Shown here: positions 1,778 to 22,854 of the stretch, piece after piece
Layout: every line of letters starts with the position of its first letter
Numbering within the stretch: the stretch's first letter is position 1
DNA from: Oscillospiraceae bacterium
GTDB lineage: Bacteria > Bacillota > Clostridia > Oscillospirales > CAG-272
NCBI GenBank assembly: GCA_015063385.1
Contig: SVUG01000013.1
Coordinates: 1 to 46,570 of the forward strand
Length of the DNA: 46,570 nucleotides
Direction of reading: 5' to 3'
The notes under the pieces: generated by a model
The model's input: only the letters and a program-made list of their open reading frames with translations
Databases searched by the model: none
What the model was told of the DNA's origin: nothing
Translations under genes and position numbers: made by a program

Positions 1778-3001
1778 ATTTGCCTCTTTTTTCTTTTTTT
1801 TGAGCAAAAATTCCAAGGTCGGAATCCAGAAGCGAGCCCTGCGAAATAGCATCGTATCCATATCTCTGCTTGATTTTATCTACCGCAATTTCGCGTTTTT
1901 TGTTTTTATCTCTCACGTCAGAGCCGATGGTATCAAACATAGTTATCTGCTCGGCAATCATATCTGCATGAGTAAGTCCTGTTGCCGTGACTGTGAACAT
2001 TCTGACAGGCTTGTGCTCGCTCCATTCGTCAAGATAAATTTTATAGGCGGTTTCCGCTATCTCACGGGAAATATCGGTAGGTGGATTTTGCGGTCGCTGA
2101 CGTTGAATAGAACGCAAGTACTCGTCCTTGATAGTCAGCTGAACGGTTCGCACTTCATTCCTCTGGCACGCAGCTTCGTGCCTATATCCTCGGCAAGAAA
2201 ATCTATGCCGCGCCGACACTCATCACGTCCCACAAGGTCGTGGCGAAATGTGAATCCCGAGCATATACTCTTTGCATCCTCGTGCTCGGCGCAAACCGGA
2301 CTTTCGTCAAGTCCTGCGGCGTACTTATGAAGCATTTCCCCTGCCTTGCCGAATCTATTTATAAGAAGTGACTCACTGGTTGCGGCAAGCTCTCCGATAG
2401 TACGTACTCCCATATGTATGAGCGCGTCCTCGGTCTTCTTCCCGACGAAAAGCAAATCGCCAACGGGAAGAGGATATACTATGCTTTTGAAATTTTCTTC
2501 ACTAATAACCGTTATAGCATCGGGCTTTTTATAATCGCTGCCGAGCTTTGAGAACACCTTGTTAAAAGAAACTCCTATCGAAACCGTAATACCTATTTCG
2601 CGCTTGACGTCGGCTCTTATACGCTCGGCAATTTCGAGTCCCGTACCAAACAGCTTCTGACTTGCGGTGACGTCAAGCCAGCTCTCGTCAATGCCGAATG
2701 GCTCGACCATATCGGTATAGCGTAAATATATTTCATTAACCCTTTTAGAAAACTTTAGATACTCGTCGTGGTGAGGCTCTGCGATAACAAGCGCGGGGCA
2801 TTTTTTCTTTGCAGACCAAACAGTTTCGGCAGTTTTTACACCGTATTTTTTGGCAAGCTCGTTCTTTGCAAGAACTATGCCGTGTCTTTCTTCGACGCTG
2901 CCGCACACCGCCATTGGAACGTTTTTATAGGCAGGGTTGAGCGCTGCTTCAACCGAGGCAAAAAAGCTATTGCAATCGCAGTGAAGTATAACTCTGCCCA
3001 T
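1776..3001 (-). pseudogene. dinB: DNA polymerase IV (Y-family), frameshifted
   Basis: Residues 1-285 read as a Y-family translesion polymerase. The catalytic acidic residues are D9 in the N-terminal 'LHCDCNSFFASVE' motif and D105/E106 in 'FGIDESWLDVT', followed by the thumb and the start of the little finger. At about 2145-2152 the frame breaks: after 'RARGMKC' the first frame stops within five codons. The expected little-finger continuation 'RTVQLTIKDEYL' runs in the -1 frame down to 1776. One extra base near 2149 would restore a continuous ~410-residue protein. There is no homopolymer at the site. As sequenced, the product would lack most of the little finger. The RBS is GGAGGG, 15 nt behind the kinase gene. 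Confidence 0.85.
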
Positions 3002-18951: not shown

Positions 18952-20427
18952 TCAGTTGTTTCCGGTTATAACGATATAATCGTACAAATTAGTGCTTTCG
19001 GTGGTAAAATCAAAGTTTGAATCATCAGCCTTCTTAAAAGCAAACGTGTACTCGCCTGATTCGTTTACCAGAAAGTCCTCTGTTATCCAGCCGTCACTTA
19101 CCAAACCGAGTTGGTATACGCCCATAAGATACTTGGTGTTATCACACAGCGAAACCTTCTGCCCTGCTTGTAAGTAAATATACTCGGAGTATGATGCTCT
19201 GTTCTGCGCTTCCTTATAGTCGGTTGAGATCCAGTTTCCGATAATCATCTTTGCTTCTTCCGGAAAAACGATTTCCTCATTCTTTTCATTAGAGCCGTAA
19301 ATCTCGTATTGAGTCTTTAAAATATTAGCAATATACTTATGACCGTTAGCGTTGGGGTGTAAACCGTCCGGCATATATGTATTTCTGATAACCGCAAGGC
19401 TAGGGTTCAAGCCACTTATTGAATATAAGTCTATAACCGGAATGGAATGTCTTCTGCAAACATTTATTACTGCATCTACATAATCCTGAAGGGTAAATCC
19501 TGCTCCATTCTTTTCGTAATCAAAATTCAAGCCGCCAAATCCGTACCTGTGAAGAGGAGTGACGAATACTATCCTGCTGTCAGGATGCTTTGCCTGCAGG
19601 CTAGGAATTATTACGTTTAATGCACCGTAAAATGAGGTATCGCCAATATCGTCAATCGTTCCCAGAGGAGTGTCGTGACCGTAATCGTTCGTTCCCATAA
19701 AAATGCTTATCAAATCAGCCTCGGGAATATCGTTATATCTTTGAATAAGAGGACTGTTGTTAGTTCCGTAATCACTCTTTGCGCTGATGCAGCTTCCTGG
19801 AACGCCCATAGCAGTTACATTGGAAAGTCCCATGCTTTCTTCAAGAATCTGCCAATATTTATCTCCGTCGCATCCTGTGCCCGCAGTAATGCTATCGCCA
19901 ACAAAAACTGCGGTCTTGCCATACCAAGCACCCTGTTCTTCGGTAGCAGCGATTTCGCCCTTTGCCTTTACGTCAGTGACCTCACCGTTGATAACCCAAT
20001 ATCCGTCAGCGTTGATTGTAATTGTGGGAGTGGTTCCGTCAGTACCTTCTGCGCCCTTAATGTTGGAAATTAAAACCCAACCCTCCGCGGTCTTGTTGTA
20101 AATGTTGAAATCATCGGTATCATAGAAATAATCTCCTATTACTCCCTGATTATCTGCAAGCTCGATTCCGCTATACCAAACAGAGCCGTCCTTGCCGTTT
20201 TCACCGTCAACACCGTCTTTACCATTCACACCGTCTTTGCCGTCTGCACCGTCCTGACCGTCTATGCCATCCTTTCCGTCCTGACCGTTCACACCGTCAA
20301 CGCCCGGCTCGCCCTGCGGACCGGCCTCGTAAAAGCATCCGGTAAAAGTGAATATGCATAACATTAAAATGCATATAACCGACAGGCATACTCTTTTTTT
20401 CTCTTGTGTGGATTTTGCTGTTCTCAT
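18952..20427 (-). CDS. Lipoprotein with collagen-like repeats and SGNH/GDSL hydrolase domain
   Basis: The start is ATG 20427 behind AAGGAG; the frame runs further upstream to 20523 but that is leader. The 491-residue protein has a signal peptide with lipobox 'FTGC' (Cys about 30), then about 15 Gly-X-Y triplets rich in GKDG/GQDG/GVDG (about 35-82). A beta segment follows, 'GTTPTITINADGYWVINGE', of the kind found next to collagen-like stalks. The SGNH hydrolase domain has 'FVGDSITAG' (Ser about 177), 'GTNDYG' and 'DGLHPNANGH' (Asp/His about 355). A C-terminal beta module of about 100 residues ends it. It is likely a surface-anchored esterase acting on carbohydrate esters. Expression is probably controlled by the structured leader at 20462-20677. 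Confidence 0.88.
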   Translation of the reverse strand: MRTAKSTQEKKRVCLSVICILMLCIFTFTGCFYEAGPQGEPGVDGVNGQDGKDGIDGQDGADGKDGVNGKDGVDGENGKDGSVWYSGIELADNQGVIGDYFYDTDDFNIYNKTAEGWVLISNIKGAEGTDGTTPTITINADGYWVINGEVTDVKAKGEIAATEEQGAWYGKTAVFVGDSITAGTGCDGDKYWQILEESMGLSNVTAMGVPGSCISAKSDYGTNNSPLIQRYNDIPEADLISIFMGTNDYGHDTPLGTIDDIGDTSFYGALNVIIPSLQAKHPDSRIVFVTPLHRYGFGGLNFDYEKNGAGFTLQDYVDAVINVCRRHSIPVIDLYSISGLNPSLAVIRNTYMPDGLHPNANGHKYIANILKTQYEIYGSNEKNEEIVFPEEAKMIIGNWISTDYKEAQNRASYSEYIYLQAGQKVSLCDNTKYLMGVYQLGLVSDGWITEDFLVNESGEYTFAFKKADDSNFDFTTESTNLYDYIVITGNN

Positions 20428-20461
20428 TGTTTTTCTCCTTTTTTGTTTTCTCGGTGCAAAC

Positions 20462-20677
20462 AAAAAGTGCGACAACCGAAGTTGCCGCACCGAAAACTGC
20501 AGACTCCGATTGTCGCCAAACAATTTGAATAAAACAAGGTATCTAAAGCATATCTTTTTTACCCATGGAACCTACAATTTTGCCGAATTCACAGATAAAA
20601 AGGATATGCAGAAAAAGGGTATATTATCCCCATAAGAGAAAAAGATACCTTTGGTTTTAATATTCAAATTGTTTGGC
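20462..20677 (-). ncRNA. Structured 5' leader with attenuator (candidate cis-regulatory RNA)
   Basis: The predicted transcription start (about 20677) coincides with the first base of a 17-bp perfect stem P1 (20661-20677 with 20515-20531). Inside are a second helix (AAGGTATCT with AGATACCTT on the minus strand) and a third (GCATATC with GATATGC, extended by an A/T tract). After P1 comes GGCGACAATCGG (20517-20506). Then a terminator: a 10-bp stem with a C(TTCG)G tetraloop and five T (20490-20462). The GCGACAATCGG segment can instead pair with the terminator's 3' arm over about 11 positions. This is a mutually exclusive terminator/antiterminator layout. The sensor identity is unknown; a MITE-like origin is the alternative. 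Confidence 0.55.
20467..20490 (-). terminator. Leader (attenuator) terminator before the SGNH lipoprotein start
   Basis: Minus strand: GTGCGGCAAC - TTCG - GTTGTCGCAC followed by TTTTTG. It is a 10-bp stem with one G-U pair and an extra-stable UUCG tetraloop, placed about 35 nt before the start codon and downstream of the promoter. Confidence 0.75.
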
Positions 20678-20683
20678 ATTTTT

Positions 20684-20712
20684 ATTCTAGCACAGAGGGG
20701 GAGAAATGTCAA
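20684..20712 (-). promoter_or_regulatory. Promoter of the SGNH lipoprotein gene and its leader
   Basis: On the minus strand, perfect TTGACA (20712-20707), a 17-nt spacer and TAGAAT (20689-20684). The leader to the start codon would be about 250 nt. Confidence 0.75.
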
Positions 20713-20837: not shown

Positions 20838-21590
20838 TCAGTAAGAGGTGACCGTGTATTCAGCAATCAATTCGTCAAGATTTTTGCCGACGAGCTGATA
20901 GTAAGCACTCCTGTCATCGCCAATATAGAAATAAGAATCTTCGATAAAATACACTTTTTCACCATTCATTTCAATATATCGAGTGGATTCTGCATCACCG
21001 AGATAAATACAATCCGTAAGCTCTTCAAACTCAAGCTCCGATACGGGAATTTCACAAACAAAAGTTTCATCAATAAGATAAACTTGGCAATATTTTTCTA
21101 GTACTTCAAATCCGTAACGATTTACAAAATTCATTCCGTCACGGAACACGGGTAAGCGCACAAGCTCGAAATAATTACCGTTTCCATCGTGATAAAAATC
21201 TCCGTTTATAAAGTACAACCGTTTAACTTCCCCGTTATTCAAAATAAACTGAACAACAACATAGCCACCGTCCGGAATCTGAGTTCTTTCCTCAGAAACG
21301 GGCTTTGAATCAAGCCAATAATATTCCTCAAAAATGCTTGAAATTACCGTCTTATTTCTCGAAGACGAAATATGCGTGAACGAAACAAGAGGCAACGGCC
21401 CGCCACCGCCCGAGATCATCTTGATTTCGGCAATATCCTCGGCGGTTATTTCATTCAGCCACTCACACCCCGACTGATTGCGAAGAAAGTGATTTTTCCC
21501 TGCTAGCTTCCCGTCTGTAAAAAGGCTGCAAGAAGTAAGACAAGCAAGCATTAAAGCTATCGCTAAAATACAAGCTAATAACCTTTTCAT
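20838..21590 (-). CDS. Uncharacterised lipoprotein
   Basis: The 250-residue product has a typical lipoprotein signal ('MKRLLACILAIALMLACLTSC', Cys 21) behind an excellent RBS (AAGGAGG). The mature part is acidic and beta-rich, with many aromatic residues and a repeated 'YFINGDFYHDGNGNYFE'-like beta pattern. I do not recognise a family and see no catalytic motif. It is the downstream neighbour of another unknown lipoprotein gene (145-nt gap) and has its own terminator. Surface location is inferred from the lipobox. Confidence 0.75.
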   Translation of the reverse strand: MKRLLACILAIALMLACLTSCSLFTDGKLAGKNHFLRNQSGCEWLNEITAEDIAEIKMISGGGGPLPLVSFTHISSSRNKTVISSIFEEYYWLDSKPVSEERTQIPDGGYVVVQFILNNGEVKRLYFINGDFYHDGNGNYFELVRLPVFRDGMNFVNRYGFEVLEKYCQVYLIDETFVCEIPVSELEFEELTDCIYLGDAESTRYIEMNGEKVYFIEDSYFYIGDDRSAYYQLVGKNLDELIAEYTVTSY

Positions 21591-21735: not shown

Positions 21736-22854
21736 TTAGTTTTCCGCGTCATTGACGCTATTCTTCTCATAGAAGATATAGAAATCGGAGATTATGAATT
21801 TCGCTGTTTCAGCATGATTTACGCCGTCTATCTTTTCCATACCGTAGCCTCGCTCGAAGCGCAATTTATCGTTTACGGAATCCGTGCTCTCATACGTCAT
21901 AATCTTGCCGTCACGCAAGATTTGATATTCCGCGCGATAGGATATATTCGAGTAAAGCACTATGCCGTCTATTTCCTTCGCCTTGACGTATCCCCAAAGA
22001 TTCATAACGTTTTTTTCGTCTTTGCTTTGAGTGACTGTCTGTGTAATATCAAAATACTGCGATTTATCTAAACCGTAATAGTTGTATATCACTCCGTATC
22101 TATCCGAGGTGGAATATACCAGGCGCTTTTCTTCCCCGTCGTATTCCTGCTTGTCGTAATAAAGGTCAAAAACTACCTCGCCATTCTCTTTGTAAAACTC
22201 CATATACGAGATGCCACCGTAACGCTCATGTCGCATAACGCTCAAGCGCTCACCTGAATAATCAAATCCTGCGGGATTCATATTCTTGTAGTTGTTAAGA
22301 TAGCGTGTCATAGCACCCCAATTTGCAGGAGCGCTAAAAAGAGAATCTACAATTTCGGTGGGTGAAACCTCTAGTACATAATCTGATGCACCGATTGTAT
22401 CAGCAAGCTCGGCATCCTTATGTACGTTGGTGTTGTAATAGACAAATCTGAGAGAGCCGTCGGCACATTTACCGAGTGCTACGTAGCAAAGGAAATATCT
22501 GTACCGCCCTTGTATATCGTGACCGCCGTTCTTGCCCGCGAAGGCAGTCATGGCATTTTCAATATTGTCACCGCCCGCAAATTCAGTGCTAAATTGTTCT
22601 TCGTGAAATTCGAGCTTGAACACTTCTTCGGCATCGTACCAAGTTTCGCCATAAATTACTGCATCTGTAAATATCCATTCGGTCACGGTATATTTCTCTT
22701 TCGCTACCGCGAGAACCTCAGCCTCGGTATATTCCACCATATCGGGATAAGTGGTTGCCATATCCGGATAAGTGGTTGTCCAGCCAAAGAGGAAGCAAGA
22801 AGAGAGCAAAAGCGTGGTTAAAATAATAATCATAACGGCTATAATTTTCTTCAT
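21736..22854 (-). CDS. Uncharacterised lipoprotein with short N-terminal tandem repeat
   Basis: The 372-residue product has a signal peptide ending in 'LLLSSC' (Cys about 20). Right after the Cys region there is a direct repeat, 'TTYPDMATTYPDM', also visible in the DNA near 22742-22782 as two ~21-bp copies, probably a recent duplication in the linker. The remainder is a mixed alpha/beta domain with many Tyr and acidic residues and no motif that I recognise. It has its own consensus promoter and a strong AAAGGAGGG RBS. It may be co-transcribed with the 250-residue lipoprotein. Confidence 0.75.
   Translation of the reverse strand: MKKIIAVMIIILTTLLLSSCFLFGWTTTYPDMATTYPDMVEYTEAEVLAVAKEKYTVTEWIFTDAVIYGETWYDAEEVFKLEFHEEQFSTEFAGGDNIENAMTAFAGKNGGHDIQGRYRYFLCYVALGKCADGSLRFVYYNTNVHKDAELADTIGASDYVLEVSPTEIVDSLFSAPANWGAMTRYLNNYKNMNPAGFDYSGERLSVMRHERYGGISYMEFYKENGEVVFDLYYDKQEYDGEEKRLVYSTSDRYGVIYNYYGLDKSQYFDITQTVTQSKDEKNVMNLWGYVKAKEIDGIVLYSNISYRAEYQILRDGKIMTYESTDSVNDKLRFERGYGMEKIDGVNHAETAKFIISDFYIFYEKNSVNDAEN

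Follow-up and report, generated by a model that had tools for sequence, protein, structure and literature searches.

The sequence ahead of a collagen-like SGNH/GDSL lipoprotein gene in the window (the whole analysed stretch of 46,570 nucleotides of an Oscillospiraceae bacterium, contig SVUG01000013.1) probably encodes a 5' leader RNA from a new family of riboswitch-type transcription attenuators. The family would set the expression of surface and accessory genes, and a long-range helix between hairpin P3 and the linker behind the closing stem P1 is its predicted OFF state. The leader RNA spans 20678-20462 on the minus strand and is about 205 nt long up to the U-tract. Its parts follow each other in the predicted fold in the order P1, P1b, P2, P3, linker, and UUCG terminator. 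The features of the locus, with the evidence for each, are as follows.

20684..20712, minus strand: promoter TTGACA-17-TAGAAT with TG before the -10 (11 of 12 consensus matches)
20661..20677, minus strand: P1 5' arm GCCAAACAATTTGAATA (sequence, fold, covariation, further-copy check)
20515..20531, minus strand: P1 3' arm TATTCAAATTGTTTGGC (sequence, fold, covariation, further-copy check)
20643..20657, minus strand: P1b 5' side, paired with 20544-20532, small internal loop (fold)
20532..20544, minus strand: P1b 3' side AGATACCTTGTTT (fold)
20612..20631, minus strand: P2 hairpin GGGG...CCC with U5 (fold)
20548..20609, minus strand: P3, long hairpin (fold)
20567..20581, minus strand: P3:linker helix, P3 strand AAAATTGTAGGTTCC (126 copies; covariation in 76)
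20493..20507, minus strand: P3:linker helix, linker strand GGAGTCTGCAGTTTT (126 copies; covariation in 76)
20503..20512, minus strand: antiterminator 5' arm CAATCGGAGT, conserved 10-bp core (covariation)
20473..20482, minus strand: antiterminator 3' arm ACTTCGGTTG, also part of the terminator (covariation)
20462..20491, minus strand: intrinsic terminator with UUCG loop and U-tract (terminator scan; covariation)
20435..20439, minus strand: Shine-Dalgarno AGGAG (sequence)
18952..20427, minus strand: putative controlled gene, collagen-like SGNH/GDSL lipoprotein of 491 aa (PF13472, PF00657, PF01391)

P1 is a perfect stem of 17 bp (20677-20661 with 20531-20515) that encloses 129 nt containing further helices. 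The terminator hairpin lies at 20491-20466, 38 nt ahead of the ATG at 20427, and its U-tract at 20466-20462. The promoter at 20684-20712 ends 6 nt ahead of GCCAAAC, the start of P1, and the predicted transcription start at 20678-20677 is the base of P1. The minimum free energy of the leader fold is -87.6 kcal/mol, against a shuffle mean of -49.5 (z -8.4), and 0 of 200 shuffles were equally good. A first-pass annotation made from the letters alone had listed the promoter, the 17-bp P1 with inner helices, the UUCG terminator, and a segment complementary to the 3' arm of the terminator, and all of them were recovered at the same positions. Its observation is confirmed, and its interpretation as a whole is partly supported. 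Seen by inspection only, GGTAT of P1b can alternatively pair with a local AUACC of the P2 region. Also by inspection only, a U-tract stands directly after P2 (here at 20612-20631 (-) and in long copies), and a U-A-U triple with the A-tract of P3 is conceivable. A hairpin with A- and U-tracts at 20801-20773, upstream of the promoter, was found by inspection and is absent from the terminator scan lists; it probably ends the transcript of the preceding gene. Two lipoprotein-like genes lie directly upstream, at 20838-21590 and 21736-22854 (-), with no Pfam match at E 0.001.

The leader is not unique to this locus. A second copy with 71% identity is present in the same genome ahead of another lipoprotein gene, while a third, weak match to the model (E 0.04) was rejected as a plain hairpin only. 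In the first search, with a cut-off of E 0.001, 23 of 58 other genomes matched, or 24 of 59 when the own genome is counted; one of them has 13 matches at 12 places. Up to 12 copies were found per genome. A pattern scan of public genomes gave at least 117 stretches. Among the 80 matches listed, the titles were mostly of Clostridia, Clostridiales, Oscillospiraceae, and Ruminococcus, many of them from rumen or gut; pattern hits in other taxa had no P1 and no terminator. Copies were accepted with a P1 score of at least 8 and a terminator score of at least 8, so the presence of these two elements in the resulting 126 copies comes partly from selection. Left out were 25 exact-motif stretches: four duplicates, four cut at an end (L054, L065, L146, and L147), one antisense (L130), 14 without family features, L102, which carries the motif without P1, and L142, which has no proper terminator. 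Counts for P1 were made on 122 copies after 13 of 135 candidates had been dropped; L002, L035, and L106 were then restored and L122 re-anchored, which gave the 126 copies of the P3:linker test. The domain is at least 135 nt long in 106 copies and shorter in 20; P2 was seen in long-form copies and is absent from the folded short-form ones. The locus L045 carries two complete copies (within 2160-2700) separated by about 105 nt; both have a promoter of their own, and no gene is obvious in the interval.

A covariance model was built on the 3' half of the leader only, excluding the 5' arm of P1. With it, 98 of 295 genomes of the order matched at E 1e-4, in 59 of 148 genera, and 70 of 291 genomes of the class matched at E 1e-5, 68 of them belonging to other orders; the own genome is included in both samples. 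It was the only match among 199 genomes of the phylum-wide sample, which includes the own genome and at least five others of the same class. As 12 to 18 candidates were scored per genome, with the own genome counted, these tallies are lower bounds. Among the sampled genomes, about one third in the order and one quarter in the class thus carry the leader, yet it has no Rfam family. The alignment and the model are ready for use in finding the trigger.

The promoter belongs to the conserved unit. A promoter with at least 9 of 12 consensus matches, ending no more than 9 nt from P1, was found in 107 of 124 copies, compared with 101 of 1240 shuffled stretches. A spacer of 17 together with a distance of 6 occurs in 91 of the 124 copies and TG before the -10 in 98, and the gap between promoter end and P1 is mostly 6-7 nt across the compared copies. 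Because the position of the promoter is fixed relative to P1, the base of P1 is the probable transcription start throughout the family.

Pairing of P1 is maintained in diverged copies. All 122 copies have positions 3-9 paired, and at least 118 have positions 10-12 paired (118 for positions 11-12); all four Watson-Crick pair types occur at position 11. With cognate arms 1273 of 1342 cells are paired, and with swapped arms 1050 (sd 9.7; 1000 permutations, 122 copies); partners slid by 1-3 are 33-56% paired, against 94% in register. Compensatory variants include GCGAAAC/GUUUCGC, GCUCAAC/GUUGAGC, GCUGAAC/GUUCAGC, and GUCACAC/GUGUGAC. Further copies were collected with the 3'-half model, from which the P1 5' arm is absent. 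Of 50 loci, 49 had the anchor (L187 did not), four were already known and 45 were new. All 45 new copies, one of which (L184) was read antisense, had a P1 score of at least 10, with a mean of 14.1; a control of wrong polarity had a mean of 7.7 and reached 14.0 once. Since the copies had been preselected for P1, the swap test, the compensatory types, and this check on 45 copies outweigh the bare percentage of pairing. That the structure of the leader did not arise by chance is supported by the fold z-score, the second own-genome copy, the matches in other genomes, and the compensatory changes in P1.

An element that the first-pass annotation had missed is a helix between P3 and the linker. Downstream of P1, the linker (GGAGUUUGCGUUUUU) is complementary to a P3 strand whose family consensus is AAAAAYGCAAAUUCC, and here the helix has 15 bp (20581-20567 with 20507-20493). 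The best duplex between linker and domain falls on this P3 strand in all 126 copies, 36 to 63 nt ahead of the end of P1, and the helix had played no part in the selection of copies. The duplex has a mean of -18.4 kcal/mol, compared with -15.5 for swapped linkers (0 of 5000 permutations) and -9.9 for letter-shuffled domains. Some best duplex always exists, and the evidence for the helix consists in its place, its strength, and the swap test. The signal is present in copies of either size, the 106 long ones and the 20 short ones. In 76 copies, 9 of 15 pairs changed on both sides. When the helix and the terminator are counted together in 76 of the 126 copies, 96.6% of cells are paired, against 92.0% in shuffled and at most 52.6% in slid versions, and 18 of 25 pairs have changes on both sides, against 7.1 in shuffled alignments. 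Formation of the helix while P1 is closed makes a pseudoknot, and a linker of 7 nt, as in the short form, may then hardly be able to reach P3. The linker and the 5' strand of P3 are alike (GUGUUUUU, for instance, occurs in both strands of several short copies), so they can compete for the 3' strand of P3.

The conserved core of the antiterminator pairs CAAUYGGAGU with ACUUCGGUUG over 10 bp and begins 2 nt past P1. In 76 copies, 96.1% of its cells are paired, against 94.5% in shuffled and at most 53.1% in slid versions; both sides changed in 4 of 10 pairs, covering 16 cells against 6.1 in shuffled alignments (0 of 500). In 165 copies, 1567 of 1650 cells are paired, while swapped tails average 1519. 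GACUA replaces GACAA in 20 of the 165 copies, and the partner is then A in 13. The most telling position has two independent changes on supported branches and 11 on the whole unsupported tree. The covariation effect of the antiterminator appears real but modest. Covariation of the helices among relatives, which the earlier reading had set as a test, is present. The coupling between P1 and the antiterminator through an overlapping GGC, also proposed there, did not prove general, as the conserved core starts 2 nt past P1; the longer antiterminator of the leader at 20462-20677, which reaches GGC of P1, is not general in the family because many terminators read UUGGCGC where UUGUCGC is required. 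The conserved coupling is instead the P3:linker helix, which takes GGAGU from the antiterminator. A hairpin H of the P1 3' arm (UUGU) with the linker (ACAA; 20515-20531 with 20514-20510 (-)) may possibly be a further state of the switch. Among 165 copies, each of its four pairs is present in 162 to 165, and 20 copies have joint changes at P1 position 8 and in the linker; as only two independent changes fall on supported tree branches, it is kept as a lead.

GGAGU is common to the P3:linker helix and the antiterminator, and ACUUCGGUUG is common to the antiterminator and the terminator; therefore, in each of these two pairs the structures exclude each other, while the P3:linker helix can coexist with the terminator. 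Because it fits the terminator and excludes the antiterminator, we assign the P3:linker helix to the OFF state. We propose that transcription begins at the base of P1 and that P1 closes a domain with P3, to which the long form adds P2. Pairing of P3 with the linker would withdraw GGAGU from the antiterminator, the terminator would form, and transcription would stop ahead of the gene. When P3 stays a closed hairpin and some partner holds the antiterminator, transcription would read through. Given the likeness of the linker to the P3 5' strand, the switch would work by strand exchange on the P3 3' strand, and the trigger would be a small molecule or protein binding the P1-P2-P3 domain. The trigger, the direction of switching, and the effect on expression are what we infer here. 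With three covarying and exclusive helices, the switch is directly testable by single and compensatory mutations.

The main tension in the proposed mechanism is the computed advantage of the terminator. Its mean energy is -15.7 kcal/mol, whereas the best fold with the terminator 5' arm blocked has -5.9; this blocked fold is not always the antiterminator, other folds being found in three of six inspected copies. In every one of the 126 copies the terminator is the more stable, with a mean advantage of 9.8 kcal/mol, and freeing the P3 strand costs a mean of 8.3 kcal/mol. With termination energetically favoured, OFF would be the default and ON would need outside help from a partner, or kinetics. 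The same RNA and helices could accordingly be worked by a trans-acting RNA-binding protein, an antiterminator protein or ribonucleoprotein, that holds the antiterminator or the P1 domain and permits read-through. A terminator-blocked fold about 10 kcal/mol weaker than the terminator in every copy is expected if a partner must hold the antiterminator, and the downstream genes share a surface address rather than a metabolite. The one factor tested, a LoaP-like second NusG-family protein, speaks against it: it was found in just 1 of 22 leader-rich genomes (and in 2 of 17 genomes without the leader), which makes processive antitermination of the LoaP type unlikely. We consider a protein trigger of this kind rather doubtful overall.

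The attenuator reading also agrees with what lies downstream. Of the 119 copies whose downstream sequence is long enough, 78 have a start codon no more than 50 nt past the terminator stem. By the criterion of a Shine-Dalgarno sequence and an ORF of at least 60 aa within 110 nt, a gene lies downstream of 86 of 110 copies, compared with a divergent upstream gene in 10 of 110. An undescribed cis-regulatory leader with terminator and antiterminator, as first proposed, is upheld by this orientation, by the covariation of P1, antiterminator, and terminator, and by the lack of an Rfam match. Alternatively, the element could be a stand-alone gene of a trans-acting small RNA, with its promoter, a 205-nt fold, and a strong terminator, and with the nearby gene read by leakage or from another promoter. 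The strength of the terminator, termination as the favoured computed default, and several copies per genome would suit such a gene. It is nevertheless unlikely, as the position of the start codons and the orientation to the gene oppose it and the antiterminator, needless for a plain terminator, covaries; the match of P3 with its cognate linker also points to action within one molecule.

Among leader genes of at least 120 aa, 76 of 96 look exported, whereas 149 of the 392 remaining genes of these loci do (odds ratio 6.2, p 2.6e-13), by a rule that is a crude letter count without a signal-peptide predictor. A lipobox is present in 30 of the 96 and in 30 of the 392. In a Pfam survey of 110 of 119 proteins, cut at 300 aa, LRR_5 (BspA-type LRR proteins) was found in 21 of 110 and the matches were spread over 59 families, with no shared metabolic theme among these proteins. 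The downstream gene set has a common address, the surface, and not a common pathway. The first-pass annotation had the leader controlling a surface hydrolase, which is too narrow, since the family precedes many kinds of mostly exported protein. No export signal was seen in 20 of the 96 leader genes, among them an EcoRI-type methyltransferase (L129), and some copies may serve defence genes. A phage-labelled faecal scaffold (MT835503.1, L211) has a complete copy at about 338-530, ahead of genes for an EcoRI-type adenine methyltransferase (PF13651) and then a GmrSD_N/HNH protein. The gut and rumen bacteria concerned are mostly uncultured; in them the leader marks a large regulon of surface proteins, and the family would set the expression of these and other accessory genes. 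A more far-reaching version of the attenuator reading, which we put forward tentatively and with less than even confidence, is a new riboswitch class, among the commoner ones in gut Clostridia. In it, one cell-wide or envelope-related signal would set surface, secreted, and defence-type genes, and strand exchange from P3 to the linker would displace the mimic strand of the hairpin.

Inverted repeat ends and up to 12 copies per genome also call to mind a mobile repeat (MITE or REP-like), in which the arms of P1 are the ends and a promoter is carried to new places; the two neighbouring copies of L045 and the copy on the phage-labelled scaffold would fit it. However, conservation extends past the inverted ends, with the promoter before and the linker and terminator after them. 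Diverged copies retain pairing through compensatory change, copies have a preferred orientation to the gene, and neither six viral-contig pattern hits nor plasmids gave a true copy or a match, respectively. A promoterless MITE at unrelated loci had been named at the outset as an observation that would speak against a leader. The block does occur at unrelated loci, mostly with promoter (107/124) and gene, and as the conserved unit exceeds the inverted ends, the MITE was rejected; we regard any mobile repeat as highly improbable. A phage origin was also rejected: there was no true copy in the six viral-contig hits (L159 passed a loose filter and was later dropped), no plasmid match, and one true copy on a phage-labelled scaffold whose label is unverified.

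The leader family, an attenuator on the reading preferred here, is apparently undescribed. Rfam 15 at the gathering cut-off gave no match to the leader, only a tRNA at 683-762 of the window, and at E up to 10 nothing came close to the gathering score; the Rfam covariance search suggested in the first-pass annotation thus gave no family. In 17 loci with copies, it gave tRNA and one Gut-1 RNA, both outside the leader. The Gut-1 RNA (RF01706) is located at 1857-1933 (+) of L175, about 150 nt upstream of a leader copy and on the opposite strand. Fremin and Bhatt (2021; PMC8040213) screened human microbiomes and described 3161 candidate structured RNAs, of which 508 lie immediately upstream of genes; the words lipoprotein, secreted, and Oscillospira have no occurrence in the main text of that paper, and its supplementary tables may hold the leader as an unnamed entry. 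A term search gave one passage of the reference list in PMC8632094 and none in PMC11109978. Literature and motif-letter searches, which did not reach supplementary tables and most subscription papers, gave no description of the leader RNA.

In T-box leaders, a weak antiterminator faces a far more stable terminator, and the leader is similar in this respect. It differs in having no UGGN bulge in the conserved antiterminator core and no T-box match in Rfam, and UGG at the end of P1 is lost in 7 of 126 copies that retain P1 pairing; a T-box identity was rejected on these three points. Riboswitches for c-di-GMP govern surface proteins in clostridia and occur in several copies per genome. The leader resembles them in its presence in Clostridia, its surface protein genes, and its several copies per genome, but it matches no Rfam family, c-di-GMP ones included. 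The search for GGDEF proteins came up empty in 5 of 22 leader-rich genomes, four of these five being at least 94% complete, and c-di-GMP is therefore an unlikely trigger. There is also a likeness to orphan riboswitches with terminator/antiterminator platforms. Unlike them, the leader ties its domain to the platform by the 15-bp P3-linker helix and not by an arm of P1, its genes encode mostly exported or accessory proteins with no pathway, and it has no match in Rfam. As in them, a structured promoter-proximal domain is combined with exclusive helices and a terminator just ahead of the start codon; the conserved folded domain is supported by covariation, and the P3:linker helix, antiterminator, and terminator are predicted from sequence comparison to form exclusive structures, each of them covarying.
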